Part shown: positions 1-60,142 of the stretch, piece by piece
Position numbering within the stretch: the stretch's first letter is position 1
How the letters are laid out: the number at the start of each line of letters is the position of its first letter
Assembly (NCBI RefSeq): GCF_015350805.1
Contig: NZ_JADKSG010000001.1
Span: 1,660,513 to 1,724,512 of the forward strand
Source of the DNA: Herbiconiux sp. VKM Ac-1786
GTDB lineage: Bacteria > Actinomycetota > Actinomycetes > Actinomycetales > Microbacteriaceae
Reading direction: 5' to 3'
DNA length: 64,000 nucleotides
Program-made: the position numbers and the translations under genes
The notes under the pieces: model-generated
What the model saw: the letters and a program-made list of their open reading frames with translations, nothing else
Database searches by the model: none
What the model was told of the DNA's origin: nothing

Positions 1-723
1 GGCCAGTCCGAAGGCGAGCAGCTTGGTGAGCCGGGCGTTGATGCCGGCGGCACGCACGCTCTCCATGTTCGAGCCGACGCCGTAGATGTGCCGGCCGAGT
101 GCCGTGCGCTGCAGCAGCAGCCACAGCCCCACGGCGATCACCGCGAGCCACACCAGCGCCACCGGTACGAAGGGCAGCAGCTCGCCGCTGGTGGCGAGGT
201 AGATCTCCTTCGTGACGCCGCCGCCCGGCCGGTCGAGCACCTCGCGGGCCAGCGAGCCGAAGATGAACGCGCTCGCCAGGGTGACCGCGATGGCCGGCAA
301 CCCGGCGTACGCGACGAGGAAGCCGTTGAACAGGCCGCATCCGAGCCCCACCAGCACCGCGAGCAGGATCGCCACGGGCACCGGCAGGGTGAGCAGCTGC
401 GTGGCGAACACCACGTTGCAGAGGCTCATGACGGCGCCGATCGAGATGTCGATGCCGCCGACGAGCACCACCACGAGCTGCCCGAGCGCCACCAGGGCGA
501 GCGGCACCACGAGGTTCGAGGCCGTCTGCAGCTGGAACCGCGTGAGCAGCTCGGGGTTGATGATGACGTAGACCACGAAGAACACCGCGAACGCGGCGAT
601 CGGCGCGATGGCGCCCTCGCGGCGCAGGCGGGTGAGGCCGGTGCTGTTCCAGCCGCGACGGCGCGGCGGCGGCGGCGGAGGAGGCGGCGTGGATGGTGCG
701 CGAGGCGGGGAGATGGCGGTCAT
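1..723 (-). CDS. Sugar ABC transporter permease, RbsC/BPD_transp_2 type (partial)
   Basis: Inner-membrane permease of a ribose/xylose-type ABC importer, cut by the left edge so that the C-terminus is missing (241 codons present; the family is usually 310-350). The protein begins with a short cytosolic tail holding a run of about eight prolines, then alternating hydrophobic helices. The PF02653-type segment GGIDISIGAV is visible, as is the late ATALGRHIYGVGSN-like loop (here RTALGRHIYGVGSN) before the cut. The ATG overlaps the ATPase stop by 4 bases (ATGA), so the two are translationally coupled. It forms one importer with the ATPase and lipoprotein upstream. The substrate is inferred to be a monosaccharide processed by the divergent enzymes; the sequence does not say which. 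Confidence 0.9.
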   Translation of the reverse strand, partial: MTAISPPRAPSTPPPPPPPPRRRGWNSTGLTRLRREGAIAPIAAFAVFFVVYVIINPELLTRFQLQTASNLVVPLALVALGQLVVVLVGGIDISIGAVMSLCNVVFATQLLTLPVPVAILLAVLVGLGCGLFNGFLVAYAGLPAIAVTLASAFIFGSLAREVLDRPGGGVTKEIYLATSGELLPFVPVALVWLAVIAVGLWLLLQRTALGRHIYGVGSNMESVRAAGINARLTKLLAFGLA

Positions 724-2348
724 CGGAGATCCTCCTCGTCGGTGGTGAGACTGATGGAGCCCGTGGAGCCGACCGCGGCGCCGACGATCGCATCCGCCGT
801 CAGCCGCCCACCGGTGAGCTCGTCGGCGACCTTGCCCTGGTAGAGCACGACCACCCGGTGGCAGACGTGCACGAGCTCCTCCACCTCGGTCGAGAACCAC
901 AGGATGCCCACACCCTGCTTCGCGAGGTCGACGATCGCCCCGTAGAGCTCCTGCTTGGCGCGCACGTCGATGCCGCGGGTGGGGTCGTGCAGCAGGATGA
1001 CCGTCCGCGAGCGATCCATCCAGCGACCGAACACGAGCTTCTGCTGGTTGCCGCCCGAGAGCGATCCGGCCAGCTCGTTCGAGCCGCGCGTGCGCACCGA
1101 CAGAGCGCTCAGGATGCCGTCGATCCAGCCTCGCTCCATCGCCAGGCGGGGTCGCCCACCGAGCTGGTAGGCCTTCAGCCAGGGGGCGAGGAGGTTCTCG
1201 CCGACGCTCATCTCGAGGGCGAGGCCCTCGCGTTTGCGGTCTTCGGGCACGTAGCCGAGGCCGTGGCGCACGGAGCGCACCGGGGTGGTGCCCTTGATGC
1301 GGCGGCCGGCGATCGTCCACTCGTCGGCGACCGCGGGGGCGGCGCCGAAGAGGGCGCGCAGCAGCTCGGCCTGGCCGTGGCCCTGCAGGCCGCCGATGCC
1401 GAGGATCTCGCCCGCGCCGAGCGACAGGCTGACCCCGTCGAGGCCCTCGGAACGGAGCTCGGTGACCGACAGGGCCACCGCATCCGTCGTTCGCTCGGGC
1501 GGATCGGGGAAGAAGCGCTCGGCCTCCCGGCCGGCCATCAGCGAGATGAGCTCGTCGTCGGTCCAGCCGCCGCGCACGAACTCGCCGGCCACCTGGCCGT
1601 CGCGCAGCACGGTGCCGCGGTCGGCGATCTCGGCGATCTCACCCAGGCGGTGCGAGACGTAGATCACGCTGCCGCCGGCGGCGGTGAGCTCCCGGATGCG
1701 CGTGAACAGCCACTGCACGCCGGGCGGCGTGAGGGCCGAGGAGGCTTCGTCGAGGATGAGCAGGCGGGGCTTCCCGGCGAGCGCGCGGGCGATCTCCACC
1801 AGCTGCCGGTCGGCGAGCGAGAGGGTGCCGACGGCGGCGCGCGGGTCGATGTGGGGGAGGTCGAAAGCACTCAGCAGAGCGGATGCTGCCGCCACCGACT
1901 TCTTCTGCGAGAAGCCGCGCAGGGGAGCGCCGTCGGGGAGGGAGAGGTTCTCGGCCACGGTCCAGTCGGGCACGAGGGCCAGCTCCTGGAAGGCGCAGCG
2001 CACGCCGGAGAGGCGGGACTGCTTGACGCTGCCCGACGCGAGCGGCTCACCGCCGACGATGATGGTGCCGCTGGTGGGGGTGACCGCGCCGGCGAGCATC
2101 TTGGCCACGGTGCTCTTGCCCGCGCCGTTCTCGCCGACCAGGGCCAGCACCTCGCCGGGGTTGCAGTGGAAGGTGACGCCCTGCACGGCCTTGACGGGGC
2201 CGTAGCTCTTCACCAGGTCGGTGGCGACGAGGAGGGCGTCGGCGGGAGGGGCGGCGGGACGGGCATCCGGCGGGGCGGTCTGCGGCGCGCTCGCCGACGC
2301 CGTCGAAGCGCCGGTCGCGATGGGGGGTGCGGGTGTCGGTGTCGACAC
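720..2348 (-). CDS. Sugar ABC transporter ATP-binding protein, RbsA/XylG type (two ATPase domains)
   Basis: Cytoplasmic ATPase that powers the importer. It has 542 residues from a GTG start, chosen because CTGGAGG lies 7 bases upstream and a longer reading frame would only add a low-complexity shadow. The first domain has Walker A GENGAGKST (about residues 72-80), signature LSLADRQ and Walker B ILDEASSAL. The second is degenerate at Walker A (GGLQGHGQ) but has an intact LSGGNQQK signature and DPTRGID, the usual pattern of RbsA/AraG-type fused ATPases. An Ala/Pro-rich leader of about 38 residues precedes the first domain and is unusual for the family. It lies 91 bases after the lipoprotein gene and overlaps the permease ATG by 4 bases. 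Confidence 0.93.
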   Translation of the reverse strand: MSTPTPAPPIATGASTASASAPQTAPPDARPAAPPADALLVATDLVKSYGPVKAVQGVTFHCNPGEVLALVGENGAGKSTVAKMLAGAVTPTSGTIIVGGEPLASGSVKQSRLSGVRCAFQELALVPDWTVAENLSLPDGAPLRGFSQKKSVAAASALLSAFDLPHIDPRAAVGTLSLADRQLVEIARALAGKPRLLILDEASSALTPPGVQWLFTRIRELTAAGGSVIYVSHRLGEIAEIADRGTVLRDGQVAGEFVRGGWTDDELISLMAGREAERFFPDPPERTTDAVALSVTELRSEGLDGVSLSLGAGEILGIGGLQGHGQAELLRALFGAAPAVADEWTIAGRRIKGTTPVRSVRHGLGYVPEDRKREGLALEMSVGENLLAPWLKAYQLGGRPRLAMERGWIDGILSALSVRTRGSNELAGSLSGGNQQKLVFGRWMDRSRTVILLHDPTRGIDVRAKQELYGAIVDLAKQGVGILWFSTEVEELVHVCHRVVVLYQGKVADELTGGRLTADAIVGAAVGSTGSISLTTDEEDLR

Positions 2349-2439: not shown

Positions 2440-3525
2440 TCAGGAGCCCGAGTAGTACTCCATGACCTGGTCGAGCGTGAGGTCGAGGCCGGGGAAGTCG
2501 TAGCCGAGCTGGAAGTTGTTCGGCATGTCGGCAAGGCAGTAGTCGGCGGCGTTCTCCTCGGTGATCTCCAGCGGCGGGAAGTACTGCTCCTTCTCGATCT
2601 CCTCGCCCTCGAGCAGCGCGACGGCCTGCTCGAGGCCCTTCGCGTAGATGGCGGGCTGGCCGAAGACCATGTTGCCCGTGAGGCCGTCGGGGGCGTACTC
2701 GGCCAGGGTGCAGGCCTCGCCGTTGTAGCCGGAGCCACCGACGACCGGCACGAACGGCAGCCCGGCCGCCTTGAAGGCCTCCGGCACGCCCTGGCCGCCG
2801 GTGAGGAAGGAGTACACGCCGCCGACGTCGGGGTTCGAGCGCAGGATGGTCGACATCGCCTCCTGGGCGGTGGCCTCGTTCCAGCCGTTGGTGTCCTGCG
2901 CCACGACGGTCGCGCCGCCGCCCTCGAGCGTCTCGATCACGCCGGGCATGGTGCCCTCGTTCAGCGGCACTCCGGCCAGGCCCTCGAGCACCGCGATGTT
3001 CTTGTCGTCGCCGAGGTTCTCGAGCAGCCAGTCGGCGCCGATCGTGCCGGCGTTCGCCCAGTCGGTCGAGACCACGTAGACGTCGTCGCTGTCGTAGGGG
3101 CCGCCGTTGGCGATGACCGGGATGCCCTGCGCCGTCGCCTGGGTGATGGCGGCGTCGGCGCCGGAGGACGAGGCCGGGTCGAACAGGATCAGGTCGACGC
3201 CGTCGGCGATCAGGTTCTGCATCGCCGCGTTCTGCTGGGCCGCGTCGTTGTCGTTGGTGCGGACGATCTTGACCTCGACCTTGTCCTTGTACTCGGGCGA
3301 GTTGGCGAGGGCCTGCAGCGAGGCGAGGCCCATCTCGCGCCAGGCCTGGCCGCCGAGCGGCTGCTCGAAGCCGATGACGAACTTGCCGTCGCCGCCGGCG
3401 GCGTCGGAACCTCCGCCTCCTTCGGCCGGGGCGCTGGTGCAGCCGGCGAGGAGGGCGAGCGAGGAGGCGGCCGCGAGGACGGCGGCTCCCCTCGCGAAGT
3501 GACGGGCGTGCTGGGGTCGCTGCAT
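2440..3525 (-). CDS. Sugar ABC transporter substrate-binding lipoprotein (periplasmic-binding type I)
   Basis: Extracellular sugar receptor of the importer, 361 residues. The ATG at 3525 follows AAAGGAGA at ideal spacing; a longer in-frame start would bury the signal peptide. The N-terminus has Arg residues, a hydrophobic stretch and lipobox LLAGC, so Cys29 is the predicted lipidated residue, followed by a Gly/Ser/Ala linker. The mature part has RbsB-type features: QPLGGQAWREMG near the start, repeated alpha/beta segments such as LIADGVDLILFDPASS, GIPVIANGG, and a late VVGGSGYNGE loop. It is first in the minus-strand operon; the operator-like palindromes lie just upstream of its likely -10 box (TAGTGT at 3569-3574, minus strand). 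Confidence 0.92.
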   Translation of the reverse strand: MQRPQHARHFARGAAVLAAASSLALLAGCTSAPAEGGGGSDAAGGDGKFVIGFEQPLGGQAWREMGLASLQALANSPEYKDKVEVKIVRTNDNDAAQQNAAMQNLIADGVDLILFDPASSSGADAAITQATAQGIPVIANGGPYDSDDVYVVSTDWANAGTIGADWLLENLGDDKNIAVLEGLAGVPLNEGTMPGVIETLEGGGATVVAQDTNGWNEATAQEAMSTILRSNPDVGGVYSFLTGGQGVPEAFKAAGLPFVPVVGGSGYNGEACTLAEYAPDGLTGNMVFGQPAIYAKGLEQAVALLEGEEIEKEQYFPPLEITEENAADYCLADMPNNFQLGYDFPGLDLTLDQVMEYYSGS

Positions 3526-3583
3526 GATTTCTCCTTTGAAATCGCCGATGGTGCAGGGCGTGGTCGGCACACTAGCCGATTAA

Positions 3584-3671: not shown

Positions 3672-4772
3672 GTGACCTCGACGACGACACCGGCCGTGAG
3701 CTTCGAGCCCGACGTGCCGATCCGCACCCGCAGCCACCGCATCGGCTGCGTCGGGGCCGGCGCGATCATGGCCGACCAGCACCTCGAGGCCTACCGGCAG
3801 GCGGGCTTCCCCGTGGTCGCCATCGCCTCCCGCACCCCGGCGAACGCCCGGGCCGTGGCCGAGCGCTACGGCATCCCCACCGTGCACGACACCGTCGACG
3901 CGCTGCTCGCCGACACCGACGTGGAGATCCTCGACATCGCGTTCCCGCCCGATCAGCAGCCGGCGATCATCCGCGCCGCCCTGGCGCAGCCGCACATCAA
4001 GGCGGTGCTCGCGCAGAAGCCGCTGGCGCTCGACCTCGACGAGGCGATCGCCCTGCGCGACGAGGCCGCCGCGGCCGGCACCATCCTGAGCGTCAACCAA
4101 AACATGCGCTACGACCAGTCGATCCGGGTGCTGAAGCAGCTGCTCGACGCGGGCGTGCTCGGCGACCCCGTGTTCGCCCAGATCGACATGCACGCGGTGC
4201 CGCACTGGCAGGGCTTCCTCGAGGGCTACGACCGGCTGACGCTGGCGAACATGAGCGTGCACCACCTCGACGCGCTGCGCTTCCTGTTCGGCGACCCCTC
4301 CGAGATCTCCACCGTGACCCGCCGCGATCCGCGCACGACGTTCGAGCACGAGGACGGCATCGTCGTGTCCACGCTGCGCTTCCCCGGGGACGTGCTGGCG
4401 CTCAGCGTCGAGGACGTCTGGGGCGGCCCCCGCGAGGAGGGCTTCGACGACGACTTCTACATCCGCTGGCGGGTGGAGGGCACCGCGGGCATCGCGCAGG
4501 GCACCATCGGCTGGCCGCACGGGGTGCCGTCGAGCATCCGCTATGCCTCGACCCACGCCACCGGAGGCAAATGGGTGGAGCCGAGCTGGGACACGCACTG
4601 GTTCCCGCACGCCTTCATCGGCGTGATGGAGCAGGTGCAGCACGCCGTCGAGACCGGCACGGCCCCCGAGCTCAGCGTCGCCGACAACGTGCGCACCATG
4701 GCGCTGATCGAGGCCGGCTACCGCTCGATCGCCGAGAAGCGCCCGGTGCGCCTCGACGAGTTCCCTGTCTGA
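3672..4772 (+). CDS. Gfo/Idh/MocA family NAD(P)-dependent oxidoreductase
   Basis: Predicted cytosolic dehydrogenase acting on a sugar, inositol or derivative. It has 366 residues from a GTG start preceded by TAGGAGACACC. The N-terminal Rossmann fold has the dinucleotide motif GCVGAGAIMADQH (about residues 19-31). The family's E-K-P catalytic motif appears as AQKPLAL, with Gln replacing Glu but the Lys kept. The C-terminal alpha/beta domain carries NMSVHHLDALRFLFG, the typical active-site His segment. It is first in a plus-strand series with an isomerase, an SDR and a DUF4432 protein, and shares the divergent operator region with the importer. Gfo/Idh plus TIM-barrel isomerase pairs occur in inositol, levoglucosan and keto-sugar pathways; the substrate here is not determinable. 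Confidence 0.88.
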   Translation: MTSTTTPAVSFEPDVPIRTRSHRIGCVGAGAIMADQHLEAYRQAGFPVVAIASRTPANARAVAERYGIPTVHDTVDALLADTDVEILDIAFPPDQQPAIIRAALAQPHIKAVLAQKPLALDLDEAIALRDEAAAAGTILSVNQNMRYDQSIRVLKQLLDAGVLGDPVFAQIDMHAVPHWQGFLEGYDRLTLANMSVHHLDALRFLFGDPSEISTVTRRDPRTTFEHEDGIVVSTLRFPGDVLALSVEDVWGGPREEGFDDDFYIRWRVEGTAGIAQGTIGWPHGVPSSIRYASTHATGGKWVEPSWDTHWFPHAFIGVMEQVQHAVETGTAPELSVADNVRTMALIEAGYRSIAEKRPVRLDEFPV

Positions 4773-4848: not shown

Positions 4849-5763
4849 ATGATTCAGCTCGGCATCTTCACCGCCTACTACCCCTACGACCTCAAAACGA
4901 CCGCGGAGAAGATCCGCGCCCACGGCTTCAACACCGTGCAGCTCGACCTGCACTTCAAGGATCTCGACCTCGGCGCCGGCCAGATCACCAAGGAGAAGGC
5001 GAAGCTCGTCAGCGACACCTTCCGCGACCACGACCTGCCGATCTCGGCCATCTCGGGCTACACGAACATCGTGCATCCCGACCCCGAGCACCGGAAGGCG
5101 AACGTCGAGTACCTCAAGGAGATCATCCGCAACGCCCGCAACTTCGGCTCGAAGTACGTCATCTCCGAGTCGGGCACCTTCAACGCTGAGAGCGAGTGGG
5201 ACCACGACCCGCACAACCGCTCCGAGGACGCCTACGAGCAGGTGCGCACCGTGCTCGCCGAGCTGGCGCAGACGGCCTACGACCACGGCGCGACCTTCCT
5301 GCTCGAGACCTACGTGAACAACGTGATCGGCTCGGTGCGCGAGACCGCCCGCGTCTTCAACGACATCCGCACCCCGGGCCTCGAGCTGCTGATGGACCCG
5401 ACGAACTACTTCGACGCCACCAACATCGACGACCAGGCCGGCGTGCTGAACGAGGTCTTCGACGTGCTGGGCGACCGGGTGCGCGTGGCGCACGCCAAGG
5501 ACGTCAAGCGCGCGGGCGACGACAAGAGCGAGAAGCACGCCGACATCGGCGACGACGACGCACTGGCCTCGCACACCTTCCGCGGGGTCGGCGAGATCGA
5601 GCTGCCGGCCGCCGGCCTCGGCTCGCTCGACTACGACCTCTACCTGCAGCGTCTCAGCGAGCAGAACCCGAACGCGCCGCTGATCATCGAGCACCTCGAC
5701 GAGAGCGACATCCCGCGGGCCAAGCAGTTCGTCGTCGATACGCTCAAGAAGTACAACATCTAG
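4849..5763 (+). CDS. Sugar phosphate isomerase/epimerase family protein (AP endonuclease 2-like TIM barrel)
   Basis: A 304-residue xylose-isomerase-like TIM barrel. Start ATG has AAGGAG 11 bases upstream. Likely divalent-metal ligands are at the ends of the barrel strands: Glu153 (LLETY), Asp183 (LMDPTNYF), His215 (VAHAKDVK) and Glu281 (IIEHLDESD). Proteins of this fold isomerise, epimerise, eliminate or hydrate sugars or keto-sugars, so the exact reaction cannot be assigned. It lies 76 bases after the Gfo/Idh gene and 43 bases before the SDR, consistent with one transcript. In known Gfo/Idh operons this partner works on the 3-keto sugar the dehydrogenase makes; that is an inference here. Confidence 0.87.
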   Translation: MIQLGIFTAYYPYDLKTTAEKIRAHGFNTVQLDLHFKDLDLGAGQITKEKAKLVSDTFRDHDLPISAISGYTNIVHPDPEHRKANVEYLKEIIRNARNFGSKYVISESGTFNAESEWDHDPHNRSEDAYEQVRTVLAELAQTAYDHGATFLLETYVNNVIGSVRETARVFNDIRTPGLELLMDPTNYFDATNIDDQAGVLNEVFDVLGDRVRVAHAKDVKRAGDDKSEKHADIGDDDALASHTFRGVGEIELPAAGLGSLDYDLYLQRLSEQNPNAPLIIEHLDESDIPRAKQFVVDTLKKYNI

Positions 5764-5806: not shown

Positions 5807-6556
5807 ATGCACGTGCAGGACAAGGTAGCGATCATCACGGGTGCGGGCGGCGCGCTCGGCCGGGCCACGGCACTCCGGCTGGGGGCCGACGGCTTCGCCA
5901 TCGGTGCGCTCGGTCGGGCGAGCGCGGATCTGGCCGAGACCGCCGCGCAGCTGGAGGCCGAGGGCTTCCCGGTGCGGATGCTCGAGGTCGACCTGCGCGA
6001 CTCCGACGCCATCGAGGCGGCCGTCGCGGGCACCGAACGGGACTTCGGCCCGGTCGAGGCGCTGATCAACAACGCGGCCATCTATCCCAGCACCCCCTTC
6101 CTCGAGATCCCGCTCGCCGAGTACGACGACGTCGTCACGGTGAATCAGCGCGGCTACTTCTACGCCGCCCAGGTGGCGGCGCGCGGCATGGTCGCGCGCC
6201 GCTCCGGTGCCATCGTGAACGTCGGCAGCATCACCTGGCACGGCGGCTGGTCGAACCTCGCGAGCTACGTCTCGACGAAGGGCGCCGCCGTCGCGCTGAC
6301 GAGGGCGCTCGCCCGGGAGCTCGGCGAGCACGGCATCCGGGTGAACGCGGTCTCGCCCGGAGCCTTCCCGACGAAGGCCGAGGAGATCCAGGGCGACGCG
6401 GCCGAGTACTCGGCCCACGTCATCGAGCACCAGGCGCTCAAGCGCCGGGGGAGCGACGCCGAGCTCGCGGCCGTCATATCGTTCCTGGTGGGCCCTGATT
6501 CGTCGTTCGTGACGGGCCAGACCATCAACGTCGACGGCGGCTGGATCATGGAATGA
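5807..6556 (+). CDS. SDR family NAD(P)-dependent oxidoreductase
   Basis: Classical short-chain dehydrogenase of 249 residues, the standard length. Visible elements are the cofactor motif TGAGGALG (residues 11-18), NNAA (88-91), catalytic Ser141 (VGSIT), Tyr154 and Lys158 (YVSTK), and a final NVDGGW. The ATG at 5807 follows GAGAGG; a GTG two codons later is an alternative. Its stop overlaps the ATG of the next gene by 4 bases, so it is coupled to the DUF4432 protein. A sugar 1-dehydrogenase role would fit an oxidative sugar pathway with the downstream FAH-family protein and semialdehyde dehydrogenase, but sequence alone does not fix the substrate. Confidence 0.9.
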   Translation: MHVQDKVAIITGAGGALGRATALRLGADGFAIGALGRASADLAETAAQLEAEGFPVRMLEVDLRDSDAIEAAVAGTERDFGPVEALINNAAIYPSTPFLEIPLAEYDDVVTVNQRGYFYAAQVAARGMVARRSGAIVNVGSITWHGGWSNLASYVSTKGAAVALTRALARELGEHGIRVNAVSPGAFPTKAEEIQGDAAEYSAHVIEHQALKRRGSDAELAAVISFLVGPDSSFVTGQTINVDGGWIME

Positions 6557-7689
6557 GGAATGCAGTGGAGATCTTCGGGCAACAGCTGAGCCGGCGTGAG
6601 CTCGCCGAACGCACGGGTGACCTGTCGGCGGTGGCGGGCATCCGCTCGGTGGTTCTCGACGACGGCGTGGAGCGGGGTGTGCGCGCCCTCGAGCTGCGCA
6701 CCGCGGCCGGCCTCGAGCTCGAGGTGCTCGTCGACCGGGCCTTCGACTTCGGCTCGGCGCGGCTTCGCGGCGTGCCGTTCGGCTGGCGCTCGGGCAACGG
6801 CTTCCGGCACCCCGGGCTGCACGAGCACAGCGACGAGGGCGGCCTGTCGTGGCTGCGGGCCCTCGACGGCCTGCTCGTCACCGGCGGGCTCGACCACACC
6901 CTCTTCGGCGGCGAGGTGGATGCGCAGCAGTACGGCTACCCGCCCAAGCAGAGCGTCACCCACGGCCTGCACGGCCGGCTCACCGCCATTCCGGCGAAGC
7001 TGTTGGAGGCGCGCGAGATCGTCGACCCCGACACCGGCGACTCGGTGCTGCGGGTCGTCGGCGAGGTGGTGCAGGCGACCTCGTTCGGCGAGCACTTGAA
7101 GCTTACCCGCACGGTCGAGCTCGACTTCACCGGTCGCGAGATCCGCTGGAACGACACGGTCGAGAACCTCGGCTTCGAGCGGACGCCGCACATGTTCCTC
7201 TACCACCTCAATATCGGCTGGCCCTTCGTCGACGAGGGCACCCGGCTCGTCGCGCCGATCGCTAAGACCCTCTGGTCCTCCGACTCGGCCGCCGAGCAGG
7301 GCGTGTCGTACCGCACGCTGCCGGCCCCGCAGCCGGGCTTCGTCGAGCAGGTCTTCGAGCACGAGCTCGTGGCCGGGGCCGACGGCCGGCACCGCGTGGC
7401 GCTCGTCGCCGCCGACGACTCCCGCGGGGTCGAGGTCAGCTGGAGCGCCGAGGGCATGCCGCACTTCTTCGAGTGGCAGAACCTGCGCAGCGGCCAGTAC
7501 GCCGTGGGCCTCGAGCCCTCGACCCACCACGTCGACGGCGACGCCGCGGCCCGCGAGAACGGGTCGATGATCTGGCTCGAGCACGGCGAGCGACGCGAGT
7601 ACTCCACCACGGTGCGGGTGCTCGACGGCTCGGCCGAGACGCGGGCCTCGACCGAGGCGATCCGCGCCATTCACGGACAGCCCGAGTAG
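6553..7689 (+). CDS. DUF4432 family protein (aldose 1-epimerase-like fold)
   Basis: A 378-residue protein resembling the DUF4432 branch of the galactose-mutarotase superfamily. Recognisable segments are LEVLVDRAFDFGSA and GLLVTGGLDHTLFGG, the His-containing VTHGLHGRL, the FTGREIRWNDTVENLG strand and HMFLYHLNIGWPFV. Members are found in sugar operons and are thought to interconvert anomers or act on keto-sugars; no activity can be proven here. It overlaps the SDR stop by 4 bases. The next gene starts 100 bases downstream behind its own promoter and operator, so this is probably the last gene of the first plus-strand transcript unless read-through occurs. Confidence 0.82.
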   Translation: MRNAVEIFGQQLSRRELAERTGDLSAVAGIRSVVLDDGVERGVRALELRTAAGLELEVLVDRAFDFGSARLRGVPFGWRSGNGFRHPGLHEHSDEGGLSWLRALDGLLVTGGLDHTLFGGEVDAQQYGYPPKQSVTHGLHGRLTAIPAKLLEAREIVDPDTGDSVLRVVGEVVQATSFGEHLKLTRTVELDFTGREIRWNDTVENLGFERTPHMFLYHLNIGWPFVDEGTRLVAPIAKTLWSSDSAAEQGVSYRTLPAPQPGFVEQVFEHELVAGADGRHRVALVAADDSRGVEVSWSAEGMPHFFEWQNLRSGQYAVGLEPSTHHVDGDAAARENGSMIWLEHGERREYSTTVRVLDGSAETRASTEAIRAIHGQPE

Positions 7690-7789: not shown

Positions 7790-9058
7790 ATGACCGACAC
7801 CACCACCCCCGCCTCCCCGTCGGGCGACCCCTCGGCGGCCCCCGAGGTGCTCTCGGGCATCCGGGTGCTCGACTGCTCGATCGCGATGGCGGGCCCCTTC
7901 GCGGCACAGCGCCTCGGCGACCTCGGCGCCGACGTGATCAAGGTCGAGCCCACCCGCGGCGAGTGGCAGCGGCACGCGGCGGCGGGCGGGGCGACCGGCA
8001 ACCGGATCAACGTCTCGTTCCTGTCTCTGAACCGCAACAAGCGCTCCATCGGGGTCGACCTGAAGGCCGACGAGGGCCGCGAGATCCTCTATGAGCTGGT
8101 GAAGACTGCCGACGTGTTCCTGCAGAACTACCGGCCCGGCGTCGCCGCCCGGCTCGGCGTCGACTACGAGACGCTCCGGGCCATCAACCCGTCGATCGTC
8201 TACGTGTCGATCTCGGGCTACGGCGAGGACGGGCCCTACCGCAACCGCCCGGGCCAGGACCTGCTGCTGCAGGCGATGAGCGGGGCCATGCTCTCCTCGG
8301 GGAGTGCCGGGCATCCGCCGACCCCCGCCGGGCAGTACCTCGTCGACGCGGTCACCGCCTCGACGGCGTTCGAGGGCGTGCTGGCCGCGCTGTTCCACCG
8401 TGAGCGCACCGGGCAGGGGCAGCTCGTCTCGGTGAACATGCTCGACGCCATCACGACGCTGCAGATGCAGGAGCTCTCGGTCTTCACCGTGGGCGGCGTG
8501 GGCCAGCACCGCAGCGAGCAGCCGCACGCGCACGTCTACATCCGGGCGCCCTACGGCACCTTCTCGACCACCGACGGCTACCTCGCCCTCGCCATGCCCG
8601 ACCTGCACACGCTCGGCGAGGTGCTCGAGGAGGAGTGGTTCCTCGGCATGGACACCGAGGTCGACAGCTGGACCCACCGCGACGAGATCTACGCCAAGAC
8701 CGCCGAGCGGCTCGCGACGCGCTCGACGGCCGAGTGGCTCGAGGCGCTCGGCGCCGCCGGCATCTGGGCGGGGCCCGTCTACGGCTACCAGGACCTCGTC
8801 GACGACGAGCAGATCAAGCACAACGGCACCTTCATCGAGTACGAGCACCCGACCGAGGGGCTCGTCAAGACGCCCGGGTTCCCGTACAAGCTGTCGGAGA
8901 CGCCGGCGCGCATCGACCGGGGGGCGCCGCTCACGGGGGAGCACACGCGCGAGATCCTGGGCGAGCTGGGCCTGCCCGCCGACCGGGTCGACGCCCTGCT
9001 CGACGCGGGCGTGGTGGCGGCCGAGCCGGGCGTGGCCGAGGTCGCGGAACCCGCATGA
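7790..9058 (+). CDS. CaiB/BaiF family (class III) CoA transferase
   Basis: A 422-residue family III CoA transferase, which moves CoA between an acyl-CoA donor and a carboxylic acid. The opening GIRVLDCSIAMAGPFAAQRLG-like region (residues 23-43), GADVIKVEP, and VFLQNYRPGVAARLG are typical. The nucleophilic Asp of the family falls at Asp157 in RPGQDLLLQAMSG. C-terminal TPGFPYKLSETPA is also conserved. It is the first gene behind an operator-bearing promoter and its stop overlaps the next ATG by 4 bases. Its partners (enoyl-CoA hydratase, FAH protein) suggest activation of an organic acid released from the imported compound; this chemistry is unusual for a sugar island. Confidence 0.9.
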   Translation: MTDTTTPASPSGDPSAAPEVLSGIRVLDCSIAMAGPFAAQRLGDLGADVIKVEPTRGEWQRHAAAGGATGNRINVSFLSLNRNKRSIGVDLKADEGREILYELVKTADVFLQNYRPGVAARLGVDYETLRAINPSIVYVSISGYGEDGPYRNRPGQDLLLQAMSGAMLSSGSAGHPPTPAGQYLVDAVTASTAFEGVLAALFHRERTGQGQLVSVNMLDAITTLQMQELSVFTVGGVGQHRSEQPHAHVYIRAPYGTFSTTDGYLALAMPDLHTLGEVLEEEWFLGMDTEVDSWTHRDEIYAKTAERLATRSTAEWLEALGAAGIWAGPVYGYQDLVDDEQIKHNGTFIEYEHPTEGLVKTPGFPYKLSETPARIDRGAPLTGEHTREILGELGLPADRVDALLDAGVVAAEPGVAEVAEPA

Positions 9059-10257
9059 CCGGCACGGCGCCCTCCTACCGGGGCATCACCTGGGACCACC
9101 CGCGCGGGCGCGACGCTCTGCGGGCCGCCGCGGCAGCCGATGCCTCGCTCGAGCTCGACTGGCAGGCGCACTCCCTCGAGCACTTCGAGTCGCATCCGAT
9201 CGACGAGCTCGCCCGCGACTTCGACCTGATCGTGCTCGACCACCCGCACCTCGGCGAGGCGCTCGAGCTCGGCTCGCTGCAGCCGATGGAGGACGTCGTC
9301 GGCCCCGAGCTCCTCGAGCGCTGGGCCGGCGCCTCGGTGGGCCCGTCGTTCGAGTCGTACCGGATGCTCGGCCGGCAGTGGGCCCTGCCGCTGGACGCGG
9401 CCACTCAGGTCGCCGCCCTCCGCACCGACCTGCTGCCGGGCGTCGCCGCCCCCGCGACCTGGGCCGAGGTCGAGCAGCTCGCCGCCGAGGCGCCCGTCGC
9501 GCTCTCCCTCGCGGGGCCCCACGCGTTCCTCAGCTTCGCGTCGATCTGCGCCGCCCTCGGCGAACCCGTCGCCGACCACCCCGATCTGCCCTTCGTCTCC
9601 ACCATCACGGGCTCGCTCGCCCTCGACATCCTGCGCTCGATCGGTGGGCGCGCCCCCGCCGGCAGCGCCACCCAGAACCCGATCGCCCTGCTCGAGCGCA
9701 TGACGTCCACCGACGAGATCGCGTACCTCCCCCTCGTCTACGGCTACGTCACCTACTCCACGCCCGTGCTGCGATTCGCGGATGCTCCCGCCGCCCTCCC
9801 CGGCGGCCGACGCGGCTCGACCATCGGCGGCACCGGCATCGCGGTCAGCCGCCGCGCGGAGGTCACCCCCCAGCTCGTCGCGCACATCACGCGGCTGCTC
9901 TCGGAGGAGACGCAGCGCGACTTCATCCCCCGGCACGCCGGCCAGCCCTCGGCCCGCTCGGCCTGGACCGATCCCGAGGTCGACCGCGCCGCGAGCGGCT
10001 TCTACGCTTCGACGCTCGCGACGATCGAGTCGTCCTGGGTGCGGCCGCGCTACTCGGGCTACATCCCGTTCCAGTCGGCGGCCTCGGCGCTCGTGCGCGA
10101 GGTCGTGGCCGGCGCCCTGCCCGTCGCCGAGGGGCTCGAGCGGCTGCGCTCCGCCTTCCGCGTGTCGGTTCGCGCACGGTCGGCGGCCACCGAGCCCGTG
10201 CGCGCGCCGGTGCCGGCGTCGCGTGCGCGAACCCACCCCCGAGGAGTCCTGTCATGA
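9055..10257 (+). CDS. Solute-binding-protein-like protein without a signal peptide
   Basis: A 400-residue protein resembling the ABC carbohydrate-binding (SBP type 1) fold: FDLIVLDHPHLGEALELG (a binding-cleft segment), WALPLDAATQVAALRTDLL and PATWAEVEQLA all match the pattern of extracellular sugar-binding proteins. Yet the N-terminus (MTGTAPSYRGITWDHP) has no hydrophobic signal or lipobox, and the ATG overlaps the CoA transferase stop by 4 bases, leaving no room for one. It is therefore predicted to stay in the cytoplasm. The next gene's ATG overlaps its stop. It may bind a pathway intermediate or sense one; no function can be assigned. I chose this start because it is the coupled ATG and matches the domain start. 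Confidence 0.75.
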   Translation: MTGTAPSYRGITWDHPRGRDALRAAAAADASLELDWQAHSLEHFESHPIDELARDFDLIVLDHPHLGEALELGSLQPMEDVVGPELLERWAGASVGPSFESYRMLGRQWALPLDAATQVAALRTDLLPGVAAPATWAEVEQLAAEAPVALSLAGPHAFLSFASICAALGEPVADHPDLPFVSTITGSLALDILRSIGGRAPAGSATQNPIALLERMTSTDEIAYLPLVYGYVTYSTPVLRFADAPAALPGGRRGSTIGGTGIAVSRRAEVTPQLVAHITRLLSEETQRDFIPRHAGQPSARSAWTDPEVDRAASGFYASTLATIESSWVRPRYSGYIPFQSAASALVREVVAGALPVAEGLERLRSAFRVSVRARSAATEPVRAPVPASRARTHPRGVLS

Positions 10258-11042
10258 CCGCACCCGTGCCCGCCACCGACGAGATCCTCGTCGAGCTCGT
10301 CGACCAGGTGGCCGTCGTCACCCTGAACCGTCCGCAGAAGCTCAACTCCGTCACCCAGGAGATGTCGGATGCGCTGGTCGAGCTCGCGGGCTGGGCGAAC
10401 GACAGCGACGAGGTGCGCGTGCTGGTGCTGACCGGGGCGGGGGAGCGGGCCTTCTGCGCCGGCTCGGACATCCGCTCGCTCGACAAGTACGCCACCCCGT
10501 GGGACTTCCGCAACCGCGAGGACTACTGCGACGCCCTGCGGCTGCTGCGGAAGCCGGTGATCGCGGCCGTGAACGGCTACGCCTTCGGCGGCGGGCTCGA
10601 GACGGCGATGACCTGCGACATCCGCCTCGCGTCGACCACGGCGTCGTTCGCGGCGCCCGAGATCAAGCTCGGCTGGATCGGCGGCGGCGGCATGAGCACC
10701 TTCCTCGCCCACTCGATCGGCGCGTCGAACGCGGCGCTGATGCTGATGACGGGCGACCCGATCGACGCCGAGCGGGCACTGGCCTGGGGCCTCGTCTCGG
10801 AGCTGGTGGCGCCCGACGCGCTGCTCGAGCGGGCCGTCGAGCTCGGCCGCACCATCGCCTCCCGCCCGCCGATCGCGGCCGAGACGGCGAAGGCCAACCT
10901 GCGGGCCGCCTACAACCTGCCCCAGGATGCGGCGATCGCCTACGAGCGCGACCTGCAGACCGTCACCTTCGCCACCGACGACGCCGCCGAGGGCCGCGCG
11001 GCCTTCGCCGAGAAGCGGCCCGGCGTCTTCCGTCGGCGCTGA
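10254..11042 (+). CDS. Enoyl-CoA hydratase/isomerase family protein (crotonase fold)
   Basis: A 262-residue crotonase-superfamily enzyme. The oxyanion-hole segments are ERAFCAGSDIRSL and NGYAFGGGLE; two Glu residues at the positions used by hydratases are present (GGGLETAMTCDIRLA and FAAPEIKLG). ATG 10254 overlaps the upstream stop by 4 bases, with GAGGAG 8 bases upstream. It should act on the CoA thioester made by the CoA transferase, adding water to or isomerising a 2-enoyl-CoA. The exact acyl chain is unknown. An 85-base C/G-rich gap separates it from the FAH gene. Confidence 0.9.
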   Translation: MTAPVPATDEILVELVDQVAVVTLNRPQKLNSVTQEMSDALVELAGWANDSDEVRVLVLTGAGERAFCAGSDIRSLDKYATPWDFRNREDYCDALRLLRKPVIAAVNGYAFGGGLETAMTCDIRLASTTASFAAPEIKLGWIGGGGMSTFLAHSIGASNAALMLMTGDPIDAERALAWGLVSELVAPDALLERAVELGRTIASRPPIAAETAKANLRAAYNLPQDAAIAYERDLQTVTFATDDAAEGRAAFAEKRPGVFRRR

Positions 11043-11127
11043 GCCCGACCCGACGCCCCGCCGACCCCCTCGCCCCCGACCGACGCCACGCCGAGCCCCC
11101 GCCCGCCCCTCTCGCAACGGAGAACCC

Positions 11128-12339
11128 ATGAGCCTCACCGACACCACCCCCCTCGCCCCCCGCGCCGACTGGGCGGGCGACGCCGCGGCGGCACTGCCGG
11201 CCGACGGCACCGCCGGCACGCTCGTCGGCCGGGTCTGGAACCCGGCGGTGAACGGCCCCTCGCCCGTGCTCGTCACCGCGGAGGGCGTGCTCGACCTCAG
11301 CGCGAGCTTCCCGACGCTGAGCGCGCTCGCCGACGATGCCGAGCCGGCCGCGGCGGCGCGGGCGGCGGCCGGTGCCCGCCTCGGTTCATTCGAGGACGTC
11401 TACGCGAACACCGCTCCGGCCGGCCGCGACCGGGATCGTCCGTGGCTCCTCGCCCCCGTCGACCTGCAGACCCTCAAGGCCGCCGGGGTCACCTTCGCCG
11501 TGTCGATGATCGAGCGGGTGATCGAGGAACGGGTGCGGGGCGACGTCGAGGCGGCCGCGAGGATGCGGGCGGGCATCCTGGAGCAGATCGGCGCCGACCT
11601 GCACGAGATCGTGCCCGGCTCGGCGGCTGCCGTGGCGCTGAAGGAGTACCTCGTGGGCGAGGGCCTCTGGAGCCAGTACCTCGAGGTCGGCATCGGGCCC
11701 GACGCCGAGATCTTCACCAAGGGGCCGACCCTCTCGGCGGTCGGCACCGCCGACCAGGTGGGCGTGCTCTCGACCTCGCTCTGGAACAACCCCGAGCCGG
11801 AGGTCGCCCTGATCGTCGACCGCGCCGGCCGCATCGTCGGCGCCACCCTCGGCAACGACGTGAACCTCCGCGACGTCGAGGGGCGCTCGGCGCTGCTGCT
11901 GCCCAAAGCGAAGGACAACAACGCCTCGTGCGCTCTCGGTCCCCTCGTGCGGCTCTTCGACGACGGCTTCGACCTTGACGCGGTGCGGCGGATGAGCGTC
12001 ACGCTCGAGATCGACGGGGAGGACGGCTTCCACCTCGACGGCACCTCGGAGATGAGCCAGATCAGCCGCGACCCCCTCGACCTGGTCGCCCAGCTGGAGG
12101 GCCCCCAGCACCGCTACCCCGACGGCGCCGTGCTGATGCTCGGCACCATGTTCGCGCCGATCGTCGACCGCGACGACGTCGACCGCGGGTTCACCCACAA
12201 GAGGGGCGACATCGTGCGGATCTCCTCGGACGAACTGGGTAGTCTGGTCAACCAGGTCGAGGCGAGCGAGAGGTGCGAACCGTGGGAGTTCGGGATCGGC
12301 TCGCTGATGAGGAACCTCGCGAGCCGGGCGCTGCTGTGA
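11128..12339 (+). CDS. Fumarylacetoacetate hydrolase (FAH) family protein, XylX-like
   Basis: A 403-residue FAH-superfamily protein. It has the metal-binding pattern of the fold: NPEPEVALIVD (E-x-E), then GATLGNDVNLRD with a conserved Asp, then the Lys-rich LLPKAKDNNASCALGP. The length of about 400 matches the FAH-family 2-keto-3-deoxy-xylonate/arabonate dehydratases rather than the shorter hydrolases, and the presence of a ketoglutarate-semialdehyde-type dehydrogenase two genes on supports that role. ATG 11128 has ACGGAG upstream. Its stop overlaps the LacI GTG by 4 bases. Alternative: a hydrolase of an acylpyruvate-type compound linked to the CoA genes. Confidence 0.82.
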   Translation: MSLTDTTPLAPRADWAGDAAAALPADGTAGTLVGRVWNPAVNGPSPVLVTAEGVLDLSASFPTLSALADDAEPAAAARAAAGARLGSFEDVYANTAPAGRDRDRPWLLAPVDLQTLKAAGVTFAVSMIERVIEERVRGDVEAAARMRAGILEQIGADLHEIVPGSAAAVALKEYLVGEGLWSQYLEVGIGPDAEIFTKGPTLSAVGTADQVGVLSTSLWNNPEPEVALIVDRAGRIVGATLGNDVNLRDVEGRSALLLPKAKDNNASCALGPLVRLFDDGFDLDAVRRMSVTLEIDGEDGFHLDGTSEMSQISRDPLDLVAQLEGPQHRYPDGAVLMLGTMFAPIVDRDDVDRGFTHKRGDIVRISSDELGSLVNQVEASERCEPWEFGIGSLMRNLASRALL

Positions 12340-13391
12340 GCGACGGGGCCGTCGCCGCACTGGTCACGCGCCCCTCGCGCCGCTCGACGCACTCGGTCAC
12401 CCTCGAAGACGTCGCGCGGCACGCGCAGGTGTCGCCGCAGACCGTCTCCCGCTCCATCCGCAGCCCCCAGCTCGTCTCGGAGTTCACGCTCGAGCGGGTG
12501 CGCAACTCCATCAGCGAGACGGGCTACGTGCCGAACCTCGCGGCCTCTAACCTCGCCTCCAACCGCAGCATGACGGTCGCGGCGATCATCCCCGCGGTCT
12601 CCGCCTCGGTGTTCGCGGATGCCCTGCAGGGCCTCGAGGAGGTGCTCGCCCCCGAGGGGTACCAGCTCTTCATCGGTTCGACGTCCTACCGTCCGGGCCA
12701 CGAGGAGGAGCTCGTCCGGGCCTTCCTCGGCCGCCGCCCCGACGGCATCTTCATCGTCGGAACCGACCACTCGCCGAACACCGGGCACCTGCTGCGCGAG
12801 TCGAAGGTGCCCGTGGTCGAGGCCTGGGACCTCACCGACACCCCGATCGACAGCGTGGTCGGCTTTTCGAACAGTGCGGCCATCCGGGCACTCGTGGAGT
12901 TCGCGCGCGATCGCGGCTATCGGCATCCGACGTTCGCCGGGTCGTTCCAGACGGGCGACTTCCGGGCGCTCGCGCGGCGCGCGAGCTTCGAGGAGTCGGT
13001 GCGGGAGCTGTTCCCGGGCGAGCCCGTGCGGGTCGTCGACTCGGGCACCGCGACGGTCGACTACGACACCGGGCGGCGGCTGCTCAGCGAGACGCGGGCC
13101 GCGCATCCGGAGACCGACGTGCTGATGTTCGCCAGCGACGTGTTCGCCGCCGGCGCCGTGCTCGAGTGCGCCCGCGCCGGCATCTCGGTGCCGGGCGACA
13201 TCGCCGTGACCGGCTTCGGCGACTTCGAGATCGGGCGGCACCTCGTGCCGACCCTCACCACGGTCGCCGTGCCCAACCGCCAGATCGGCACCGCGGCGGG
13301 CGAGCTGCTGCTCGCACGGATGACCGGCGGCACCCGTGAGACCGCCGAGATCGACCTCGGCTTCTCGGTCGTGGCGCGCGAGAGCGCCTGA
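12336..13391 (+). CDS. LacI family transcriptional regulator
   Basis: A 351-residue LacI/GalR regulator. The N-terminal helix-turn-helix reads SVTLEDVARHAQVSPQTVSR, followed by the hinge region, and then a type I periplasmic-binding-like sensor domain (MTVAAIIPAVSASVFADALQG onward) with the C-terminal VTGFGDFEIGRHLVPTLTTV segment typical of the family. The GTG at 12336 overlaps the FAH stop (GTGA); it gives a normal short leader before the HTH. Its position between pathway genes and the three AGCGCTGCCA sites around it argue that it controls the whole island by repression relieved by a pathway sugar or acid. Autoregulation would follow because it lies inside the operon. Confidence 0.92.
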   Translation: MSDGAVAALVTRPSRRSTHSVTLEDVARHAQVSPQTVSRSIRSPQLVSEFTLERVRNSISETGYVPNLAASNLASNRSMTVAAIIPAVSASVFADALQGLEEVLAPEGYQLFIGSTSYRPGHEEELVRAFLGRRPDGIFIVGTDHSPNTGHLLRESKVPVVEAWDLTDTPIDSVVGFSNSAAIRALVEFARDRGYRHPTFAGSFQTGDFRALARRASFEESVRELFPGEPVRVVDSGTATVDYDTGRRLLSETRAAHPETDVLMFASDVFAAGAVLECARAGISVPGDIAVTGFGDFEIGRHLVPTLTTVAVPNRQIGTAAGELLLARMTGGTRETAEIDLGFSVVARESA

Positions 13392-13424: not shown

Positions 13425-14933
13425 ATGCTCACCACCACAGATCCGCGAACCGGTGTTAGCGCTGCCACCTCGCTGGCGCCCACCTCGCCCGAGGCCGTGC
13501 ACGAGATCGCGCTGCGCGCCGAGTCGGCCGCCCAGGAGCTGCAGTCGCGCGGTCGGGAGTTCCGCGCGCAGCTGCTCGACGCCATGGCCGCTGGGGTGCT
13601 CGCCGCCCGCGACGAGCTCGTGGCCACCGCCGACGCCGAGACCGGGCTCGGCACCGCCCGGCTGACGGGAGAGGCCGGCCGCAGCGCCTTCCAGTTCTCG
13701 CTCTTCGCCGAAGCGGTGCGCGAGGGCTCGTTCGTCGAGGCGGCCATCGACCACGCGGGCGACACCCCGCTCGGCGCAGCTCCTGACGTGCGACGGATGC
13801 TCGTCTCCATCGGCCCCGTCGCGGTGTTCGGCTCGAGCAACTTCCCCTTCGCCTTCTCGGTGCTCGGGGGTGACGTGGCGTCGGCGATCGCCGCCGGATC
13901 GCCGGTGGTCGTCAAGGCGCACGGCTCGCATCCGCTCACCTCGAAGCTGTCGTACGAGGTGCTGCAGCGCGCCGCCGAGTCGGTGGGCGCCCCACGCGGC
14001 ACCTTCGGCATCGTCTACGGTCAGCAGGCCGGCGTGACGCTCGTGCAGGAGCCGGCCATCAAGGCGGCCGGCTTCACCGGGTCGCTCGGCGCGGCCGAGG
14101 CGCTGCAGCGCGCCATCGACCAGCGGCCCGATCCCATCCCGTTCTTCGGCGAGCTGTCGAGCATCAACCCGCTCGTCGTGTCGCCGGGCGCCGCGGCCTC
14201 GCGCGGCGGCGCGATCGCCGAGGGCCTGTTCGCCTCGTACACCGGCTCGGCCGGGCAGCTCTGCACCAAGCCCGGCATCGCCTTCGTGCCCTCGGGGCCC
14301 GAGGGGCAGGCGGTCGTCGACGCCCTCGAGACGCTCACCGCGGCGGCCGGGCCGCAGGTGCTGCTGAACGACCGCATCCAGACCTCGTTCGGCGAGATCG
14401 CCGACCGGCTCGTGGCCGCCGGAGCGGTGGTCGGGGCCTCGGGGGGCTCGCCGGAGGAGGGGTCGGGGTTCGCCGTGTCGCCGCGACTGCTCGAGACCAC
14501 CGCGGAGACGCTCGGGGCCGAGCTGGCAGAGGAGGCGTTCGGCCCGCTCGTGGTGGTCGCGCGGTACGACTCGCTCGACGAGGTGCGCGAGGCGTTCGGC
14601 CGCATCCCCCGGTCGCTGACCGCCACGCTGCACGTCGAGGACGACGAGCCCGACGTGGTCTCCTCGCTCGCCTCGACGCTCGAGGCGAGCTCGGGCCGGG
14701 TCGTCTTCAACGGCTACCCGACCGGGGTGCGCGTCGCCTGGGCCCAGCAGCACGGCGGGCCGTGGCCCTCGACGAACTCGCAGCACACCTCGGTGGGCGT
14801 CACGGCGGTGCGCCGCTTCCTGCGCCCGCTCGCGTGGCAGAACGCGCCCGAGGCGGCGCTGCCGGAGGAGCTGCGGGACGGCTTCACGGGCATCCCGCGC
14901 CGGGTCGACGGGGTGCTGACGCTGCCGGCCTGA
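13425..14933 (+). CDS. Aldehyde dehydrogenase (NADP+), 2-ketoglutarate-semialdehyde (2,5-dioxovalerate) type
   Basis: A 502-residue aldehyde dehydrogenase. Key segments are SSNFPFAF (Asn139), the cofactor loop FTGS (217-220), FGELSSINPLVV (general base Glu243) and GSAGQLCTKPG with catalytic Cys280. The FGELSSINP and QLCTKPG variants are characteristic of the ketoglutarate-semialdehyde dehydrogenase branch, which ends the Weimberg-type oxidation of pentoses and hexarates to 2-oxoglutarate. An excellent ribosome site (GAAGGAG) precedes the ATG. A copy of the operator core lies inside codons 10-15. With the FAH-family protein it completes the lower half of such a route, but no sugar-acid dehydratase or lactonase lies in the window. 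Confidence 0.9.
   Translation: MLTTTDPRTGVSAATSLAPTSPEAVHEIALRAESAAQELQSRGREFRAQLLDAMAAGVLAARDELVATADAETGLGTARLTGEAGRSAFQFSLFAEAVREGSFVEAAIDHAGDTPLGAAPDVRRMLVSIGPVAVFGSSNFPFAFSVLGGDVASAIAAGSPVVVKAHGSHPLTSKLSYEVLQRAAESVGAPRGTFGIVYGQQAGVTLVQEPAIKAAGFTGSLGAAEALQRAIDQRPDPIPFFGELSSINPLVVSPGAAASRGGAIAEGLFASYTGSAGQLCTKPGIAFVPSGPEGQAVVDALETLTAAAGPQVLLNDRIQTSFGEIADRLVAAGAVVGASGGSPEEGSGFAVSPRLLETTAETLGAELAEEAFGPLVVVARYDSLDEVREAFGRIPRSLTATLHVEDDEPDVVSSLASTLEASSGRVVFNGYPTGVRVAWAQQHGGPWPSTNSQHTSVGVTAVRRFLRPLAWQNAPEAALPEELRDGFTGIPRRVDGVLTLPA
13454..13467. promoter_or_regulatory. Third operator-like copy, inside the aldehyde dehydrogenase coding start
   Basis: TGTTAGCGCTGCCA lies 29 bases into the gene, sharing TTAGCGCTGCCA with the site at 7731-7742 and AGCGCTGCCA with the palindrome at 3584-3597. 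It could act as a road-block or auxiliary looping site. It is also translated, so codon constraint is an alternative explanation. Confidence 0.5.
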
Positions 14934-14980
14934 CGGGGCCTGACGGGTCTCACGCTCCCCGGCTGACCCGGGGACGACGA

Positions 14981-15010
14981 AAGGGGGCGGGCCTCACGGC
15001 CCGCCCCCTT
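14981..15010. terminator. Strong stem-loop between convergent genes
   Basis: A perfect 13-bp stem, AAGGGGGCGGGCC (14981-14993) pairing with GGCCCGCCCCCTT (14998-15010), with a TCAC loop. It lies between the stop codons of the convergent aldehyde dehydrogenase and subtilase genes. A short A/T-containing end on each side suits a bidirectional terminator, though the U-tract is weak. Confidence 0.8.
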
Positions 15011-15024
15011 CGTGTGTGTCCTGC

Positions 15025-43302: not shown

Positions 43303-43455
43303 CGAGGCTCCTAGGGGTCGGTGAGGGCGGCGGGAACGCCGGATTCACGCTAGCGGAATCGCGCCCTGCTCCCAGCCGCCGCGGCCTAGGATCAAGGGTG
43401 GTCCACCGCCCCGTCGGGCGGATCCTGCCCGGGCCGCCCGACCGAGGGAGGCCCC

Positions 43456-54648: not shown

Positions 54649-54699
54649 CGGTGCCTCCGGGACGGCGGCCGCGGGCGGCCGGAAGGACGGGCCGCGAGC

Positions 54700-54759
54700 G
54701 CGGCGGGTCAGTAGGTGCGGCGGGTCAGTGGGTGCGGCGGGTCACGGTGCGGCGGGTCA
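54700..54759. repeat. Short tandem repeat at the lipoprotein 3' end
   Basis: Four copies of GCGGCGGGTCA at 54700-54710, 54717-54727, 54734-54744 and 54749-54759, spaced 17, 17 and 15 bases. Read on the minus strand each is TGACCCGCCGC; the first copy supplies the lipoprotein gene's TGA stop. The 108-base gap to the enolase gene contains little else. Confidence 0.8.
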
Positions 54760-55803: not shown

Positions 55804-55854
55804 CGTTGAGCCTCCATCGGTGCGGGCCATCAGGTCATCATCGGTCGTCATTCG

Positions 55855-55868
55855 AATCCTATAGGATT
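55855..55868. promoter_or_regulatory. Perfect 14-bp palindrome between lipoprotein and GntR genes
   Basis: AATCCTATAGGATT is a perfect palindrome in the 117-base divergent gap, one of the few A/T-rich spots nearby. It is a candidate operator of the GntR/FCD protein. A TAGATT -10 box for the GntR gene lies at 55886-55891, 18 bases downstream. Confidence 0.65.
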
Positions 55869-55920
55869 TCCGCCATGCTCCACGATAGATTGGGTCCTGT
55901 CAAGCAGGAGGGAGCGACGG

Positions 55921-57809: not shown

Positions 57810-57863
57810 CGCGACCCTTCCGTCGTGCACCCCATTCTGCCGGTCGCGGGGCCGCGACGCCCG

Positions 57864-60047: not shown

Positions 60048-60070
60048 CTCGTCCTTCTCCGTCGAATTAT

Positions 60071-60101: not shown

Positions 60102-60142
60102 ACTGCGCAACTCGTGCAAGACCTACCAGATGGGCGAGATCA

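Follow-up and report, generated by a model that had tools for sequence, protein, structure and literature searches.

A CoA transferase, a cytosolic-type sugar-binding-fold protein and a hydratase form a widespread gene module in sugar-catabolic islands

Why would a sugar-catabolic operon carry genes for coenzyme A (CoA) chemistry? The question is raised by a four-gene block in the genome of Herbiconiux sp. VKM Ac-1786, within a 64,000-nt stretch of contig NZ_JADKSG010000001.1 (positions 1,660,513 to 1,724,512; hereafter the window, to which the coordinates below refer). The block lies on the + strand and encodes a family III (CaiB/Frc) CoA transferase (CaiB; 7790..9058; PF02515, CoA_transf_3, E = 5.9e-109), a protein resembling the solute-binding proteins of importers (SBP; 9055..10257), a crotonase-family hydratase/dehydratase (ECH; 10254..11042; PF00378, ECH_1, E = 2.8e-61) and an FAH-superfamily protein (11128..12339; FAA_hydrolase, E = 2.9e-7). 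The CaiB/SBP and SBP/ECH junctions are ATGA overlaps of 4 bases each, and 85 bases separate the ECH and FAH genes. The original prediction had placed and described this coupling correctly, and it had called the four genes a CoA-thioester module embedded in a sugar island. We observed that CaiB, a cytosolic-type SBP and a hydratase are a real and widespread gene system.

We scanned species-representative genomes and confirmed at least 582 SBP-related stretches. The best 80 of these are the named loci counted below; they are biased to close relatives because they are the best of that larger set. They were annotated by BLASTP against the window and plasmid proteins and with a home-made gene caller. 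CaiB and ECH were each present in 78/80 loci, and CaiB, SBP and ECH were consecutive in 74/80. The loci came from actinobacteria and proteobacteria, among them Herbiconiux, Leifsonia, Arthrobacter, Streptomyces, Pseudonocardia, Sphingomonas, Azospirillum, Rhizobium, Paracoccus, Burkholderia and Bordetella, together with one metagenome-assembled genome (MAG) of the Comamonadaceae and one acidobacterial MAG. Among these loci the block was not found away from sugar genes: by a loose gene list, each of the 80 had one or more homologues of genes for sugar catabolism, sugar transport or LacI. Literature searches of open-licence papers gave no published description of the module or of a pathway with these genes.

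A less biased sample of 296 genomes, drawn evenly from the window's class, held 16 SBP places in 14 genomes, the window's genome included. A CaiB homologue lay in the fetched stretch at 16/16 of these places, not always adjoining the SBP gene. A phylum-wide search found 3 positives among 396 genomes, too few for statistics, and the viral collection searched held no relatives. Matches occurred in 145 plasmid records, and ten stretches were inspected. Annotated plasmids of Streptomyces, Pseudosulfitobacter, Variovorax, Sinorhizobium and Pararhizobium carried the same core in varying surroundings. On the Sinorhizobium medicae plasmid (L050), the CaiB-SBP pair stood among capsule and other genes, ~11 kb from the nearest other solute-binding-protein gene, which belongs to another importer. 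A second module, CaiB-SBP-MaoC, lies ~1.2 Mb away in the window's own genome (G000:C1:471341-474176; L009 7341-10176, - strand). Its island is L-fucose-like, with LacI, amidohydrolase, SDR and fuconate-dehydratase-like genes and, named by eye, zinc-ADH-like, KDPG-aldolase-like and sugar-kinase-like genes.

The original prediction had overlooked that the SBP lacks an export signal. The SBP_bac_8 match was below the Pfam cut-off (E = 1.8e-4; 21.8 bits, cut-off 27), and the predicted structure has a complete SBP fold of the CUT1 type; the protein also carries WDHPRG and DHPH motifs. A start codon lay 2-14 residues ahead of the WDHPRG motif in 75/80 loci (1 had no motif match and 4 had no nearby start). 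The junction was measured in 74 loci, and in 36 of them the overlap of the SBP start with the CaiB stop was exactly 4 bases; in two genomes of ~48% GC stop codons occurred at most 30 codons upstream of SBP. Start position and upstream stops, used here without a signal-peptide program, gave no export signal. The SBP was aligned (A3) from 47 of the 75 placed starts plus P0002. The alpha-glycoside-, trehalose/maltose- and sulfoquinovose-binding proteins of CUT1 importers showed <20% identity to SBP in the VIA-align rows. Unlike them, the SBP described here has no signal peptide and has a CoA transferase as its fixed partner. The operons hold separate ABC binding proteins beside the module SBP. 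The simplest guess is that SBP would be a substrate-holding partner of CaiB.

D157 of CaiB, which we take from its motif context to be the catalytic Asp, was kept at ≥98% in 79 aligned sequences, as were E116 and E136 of the crotonase, presumably its two catalytic Glu residues. Passages of PMC9813914 describe an Asp as the nucleophile of family III CoA transferases. The hydratase itself varied: the class sample had ECH at 7/16 SBP places and MaoC at 6/16. Most ECH modules fell in one clade of the SBP tree, which was midpoint-rooted and read without support values. Within that clade, L042, L083 and L102 carried MaoC and no ECH match (the L042 locus holds many transposases), and L038 and L039 carried ECH (38-40% identity) outside it. 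A GDxxPxHxD-type motif was present in 10 of 15 MaoC matches and a near variant, judged by eye, in 3; the remaining 2, both second copies, had none. Because the unrelated ECH and MaoC folds swap at one position, the conserved step looks like acyl-CoA hydration or dehydration.

Two other arrangements were observed. The small genomes L034 (5368-5877, - strand) and L035 (5233-5766, - strand) have two MaoC-like genes each, and the one on the CaiB side, which has no Asp/His motif, is possibly one half of a heterodimeric hydratase. L036 encodes a class I CoA-transferase-domain protein (14951-16714, - strand; PF01144, assigned by Pfam on L036 alone) between SBP and CaiB, and similar open reading frames occur in L037 and L040. 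This type is a third module form without a detectable hydratase.

The fourth gene of the block departs from the original prediction, which had counted FAH as part of the CoA chemistry. In our alignment the protein retained the acids of the archaeal KDA dehydratase, and bacterial FAH/MhpD proteins dehydrate both D- and L-2-keto-3-deoxypentonate (KDP), according to passages of Watanabe et al. 2019 (PMC6336799). FAH is therefore probably a dehydratase of 2-keto-3-deoxy-D-pentonate, and on the same alignment we dropped the idea that it hydrolyses a CoA-derived intermediate. It follows ECH directly in many operons. FAH and the downstream aldehyde dehydrogenase (13425..14933, + strand; PF00171), a candidate 2-ketoglutarate semialdehyde dehydrogenase (KGSADH), would form the tail of a Weimberg-type route. 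Aldehyde dehydrogenase genes were present in 27 loci, 6 of which rest on matches of <45% identity. A glyoxylate-reductase-like 2-hydroxyacid dehydrogenase was observed in L079 (12160-13909), L085 (12047-13790) and other sphingomonad and Azospirillales loci (best model glyoxylate reductase, 284 bits vs a cut-off of 455). In several loci a P-loop-kinase-like gene came after it.

The gene families, their coupling, the catalytic residues, the missing export signal and the exchange of hydratase folds are features of the sequences themselves. With them in hand, we tentatively favor, at a little under an even chance, a CoA-cycling hydro-lyase that turns a sugar acid into KDP and feeds a Weimberg-type tail. 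A sugar would enter through the importer. The DUF4432 protein (6553..7689, + strand; PF14486, E = 9.2e-87), a candidate mutarotase, would mutarotate it, and the SDR dehydrogenase (5807..6556, + strand; adh_short_C2), a candidate aldose 1-dehydrogenase, would oxidize C1 to give the aldonate. CaiB would then shift CoA from the product acyl-CoA onto the incoming aldonate. The crotonase, or MaoC in other lineages, would take water out across C2-C3 of the thioester, and D-KDP would come free when the next aldonate takes over its CoA, much as CaiB and CaiD work on carnitine. Dehydration of this acid by FAH would give 2-ketoglutarate semialdehyde, which the aldehyde dehydrogenase would turn into 2-oxoglutarate. 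In the cytosol, the SBP-fold protein may bind either the free sugar acid or the CoA ester of this acid, with CaiB as its fixed partner. We infer the order of reactions, the aldonate substrate, the recycling of CoA, KDP as the product and the role of SBP. Two suggestions of the original prediction are thus retained, that the CoA module belongs to sugar catabolism and that a sugar acid may be degraded as a CoA ester.

The closest chemical parallel is carnitine metabolism in Escherichia coli, where, in passages of PMC3680233, CaiB passes CoA from one betaine to another and the hydration by CaiD takes place on the CoA ester. Both systems pair a family III CoA transferase with a hydratase acting on CoA esters, and the exchange of CoA between substrate and product in the carnitine system is what we propose for the module. 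The module differs in its sugar operon, in its extra SBP and in having no CaiC-type ligase that we could see. Its CaiB belongs to another subfamily (L-carnitine CoA-transferase model, 151 bits vs a cut-off of 413). We tallied Pfam matches for 78 of the 103 unassigned operon genes. Among the matches listed (25 of 44 families), these genes gave no thiolase, CoA ligase or acyl-CoA dehydrogenase, nor any feruloyl-esterase-like family that an acylated or phenolic-linked sugar had suggested. This fits CoA cycling better than a beta-oxidation-like route, which we rejected for want of a thiolase or acyl-CoA dehydrogenase among those matches. The LacI-family regulator (12336..13391, + strand; alternative start 12360) is nearest to the GntR/IdnR gluconate regulators (NCBIfam GntR, 302 bits, under the model cut-off of 400), which fits an aldonate signal.

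A second parallel is Weimberg route II, which in passages of PMC6336799 shares with the island an SDR-type dehydrogenase, an FAH protein, an aldehyde dehydrogenase and a sugar ABC importer. The island differs by its CoA transferase, cytosolic SBP and crotonase, and an enolase-superfamily or IlvD/EDD dehydratase was absent in 68/80 operons. The window operon has neither type (the UxaA/GarD type was not searched), and one query found no IlvD/EDD homologue in 105 loci. The one IlvD/EDD gene of the window's genome lies outside the window, and the window's sole match to PF13378, at 53.6 kb, belongs to a different island. Because the usual pentonate dehydratase is missing, the CoA module would stand at its step.

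Several observations weigh against this reading. An enolase-superfamily gene, which could dehydrate an aldonate, was present in 12/80 operons and anywhere in 26/80 loci, and the window's genome had 8 enolase-superfamily matches; the CoA step may therefore not replace the ordinary dehydratase. No FAH was found in 28/80 loci, some of them ended by a contig edge. The 12 operons with both systems, the 8 matches in the same genome and the 28 loci without FAH are the chief evidence against simple replacement. No ECH or MaoC match was found in L036, L037 and L040 of the class sample or at the plasmid locus L050, and no lactonase family was found among the scanned operon genes. The aldehyde dehydrogenase scored 48 and 67 bits with the KGSADH models (cut-offs 770 and 750), and no NCBIfam model exceeded its cut-off among the matches listed for it (25/32). 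In addition, 14/80 loci had the 2-hydroxyacid dehydrogenase without an aldehyde dehydrogenase, and none had both, so another pathway tail exists. Finally, a 2-oxoacyl-CoA product would be labile.

An alternative is an island with two substrates, in which the Weimberg-type genes act on the pentose and the CoA module separately handles a different acid that comes off with the sugar, perhaps a small acyl or hydroxy acid. We put this at about one chance in four, which makes it less probable than the favored reading and the strongest of the alternatives. Some operons have a full-looking CoA-free front end, with enolase-family, metallo-beta-lactamase-fold and Gfo/Idh genes ahead of CaiB-SBP-ECH-FAH and aldehyde dehydrogenase, and genes of L-fucose type (fuconate dehydratase, FAH2, SDR2) accompany MaoC-type modules. 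However, the matches listed include no thiolase or CoA ligase to finish such an acid, and a second Pfam tally, of 61 of the 136 large unassigned locus genes, found one AMP-binding protein. The sugar-binding fold of the SBP partner and the position of FAH directly after ECH in many operons also argue against a separate acid.

As to the substrate, pectin-type enzymes near some modules suggest one candidate. A beta-helix cluster was present in 14/80 loci, and the only member compared with the PDB, L091, matched BT_1002 (GH141; E = 2.6e-40). BT1002 of Bacteroides frees 2-O-methyl-D-xylose-alpha-1,3-L-fucose from rhamnogalacturonan II (RG-II; PMC10154630). Pfam assigned GH141_M to 5, GH28 to 8 and GH106 to 2 of the 61 large locus genes, and L129 has a GH78-type rhamnosidase. 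As in RG-II degradation by Bacteroides (PMC10154630), GH141-like genes occur here, beside the module in some genomes; in the class sample they lay ~10 to 16 kb from it in G117 and G131, and G131 also had GH95 and GH106. GH141_M was present in 4/14 SBP-positive genomes compared to 19/282 others (P = 0.017, one-sided, uncorrected for relatedness). Deoxyhexose-route homologues occurred in 18/80 loci. The pectin-type enzymes, the BT1002 product and these homologues make 2-O-methyl-D-xylose an attractive substrate candidate; L-galactose and D-apiose are further candidates.

Other data count against a link to pectin. GH141_M lay on other contigs than SBP in G090 and G144, two of the four genomes that have both. 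Scanned alone, the G117 protein fell short of the cut-off of 27 bits, at 24 bits; scanned with its neighbors, it exceeded the cut-off. Neither L091 nor L116 was listed for the GH141_M model, a Streptomyces beta-helix protein matched 9rx2 and not BT_1002, and the window's genome had no GH141_M match.

Sugar isomerases and ordinary aldonate dehydratases should be unable to act on a 2-O-methylated substrate, since its enol ether cannot ketonize. The module might then be a CoA-dependent demethoxylating route for 2-O-methylated plant-wall sugars, which we consider unlikely. Loss of the 3-OH from the CoA ester of 2-O-methyl-D-xylonate would leave a 2-methoxy-enoyl-CoA, whose hydration would yield methanol and D-KDP, the likely substrate of the neighboring FAH enzyme. 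The cytosolic SBP would hold the methylated acid in place for CaiB, and the paralogous MaoC modules of L-fucose islands would act on 2-O-methyl-L-fucose. What speaks for this route is that two downstream routes, for D-pentose and L-fucose, match both methylated RG-II sugars, and that GH141-like genes stand beside some modules. PMC10154630 concerns glycosidases, and the passages used do not describe the fate of the released 2-O-methyl sugars.

An unlikely alternative is that the crotonase cleaves the aldonyl-CoA, by a retro-aldol or lyase reaction, into a two-carbon acyl-CoA and a shorter aldehyde, with CaiB recovering the CoA. Crotonase-fold lyases exist, for example hydroxycinnamoyl-CoA hydratase-lyase, and the 14 loci that add a 2-hydroxyacid dehydrogenase, several with the P-loop-kinase-like gene next to it, are consistent with such products. 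Nevertheless, the replacement of the crotonase by MaoC favors plain hydration or dehydration, and the KDA-dehydratase residues of FAH indicate KDP. That SBP is an ordinary importer subunit, linked to CaiB by operonic convenience, is very improbable despite its CUT1-type fold, given its start close to WDHPRG, its 4-base overlap with CaiB, the stops upstream, the CaiB homologue at every class-sample place and the separate ABC binding proteins of the operons.

The rest of the island was described in the original prediction as an RbsABC importer and sugar oxidoreductases. On the - strand lie an RbsC-like permease of a CUT2-type importer, cut by the window edge (1..585; BLASTP to rbsC of the Sinorhizobium locus L045), an RbsA-like importer ATPase (720..2348; 36% over 492 columns to the 517-residue RbsA of L045) and the probable exported sugar-binding protein of this importer (2440..3570; signal-like N-terminus by eye). 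A cluster related to the last protein (cluster 21) adjoins rbsA and was found in 6/80 loci. On the + strand follow a Gfo/Idh/MocA oxidoreductase (3672..4772; PF01408; nearest solved structure 5uhw, E = 4.9e-25) and a xylose-isomerase-like TIM barrel, an epimerase or isomerase (4849..5763; PF01261), which had no solved-structure relative at E ≤ 0.001. The two genes occurred together in 27/27 loci. 5uhw belongs to work on D-apiose, and the distant relationship of the Gfo/Idh protein to it would suit a D-apiose route; this route was set aside, as the window-type Gfo/Idh and TIM genes were absent from 53/80 loci. SDR was present in 54/80 loci, DUF4432 in 53/80 and both in 52/80, and the DUF4432 protein matched the structure 3ty1, a 'Hypothetical aldose 1-epimerase' (E = 6.7e-19).

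Three further features of the window were observed. A large subtilase of 1079 residues with fn3, PA and PPC domains (15025-18264, - strand) adjoins the sugar island. An exopolysaccharide-like cluster (42019-46961) holds a polysaccharide pyruvyl transferase and a glycosyltransferase with HEAT repeats. A second sugar island (48573-63998) contains an MFS transporter, an enolase-superfamily protein, a ROK regulator, GH36, GH95 running to the window end and, by eye, importer genes; its enolase-superfamily protein is 61% identical to one beside a Nitratireductor CaiB-SBP pair.

The module is common, with at least 582 stretches, yet it is masked by annotations such as 'extracellular solute-binding protein'. 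If our reading is true, aldonic acids would be catabolized as CoA thioesters, which is not mentioned in the main texts of PMC6336799 and the review PMC9795676, where 'CoA' has no occurrence. It would also mean that evolution has turned a sugar-binding protein of transporter type into a cytosolic component of an enzyme system. The module also offers an entry point to the possible use of rare pectin sugars by soil and plant bacteria.

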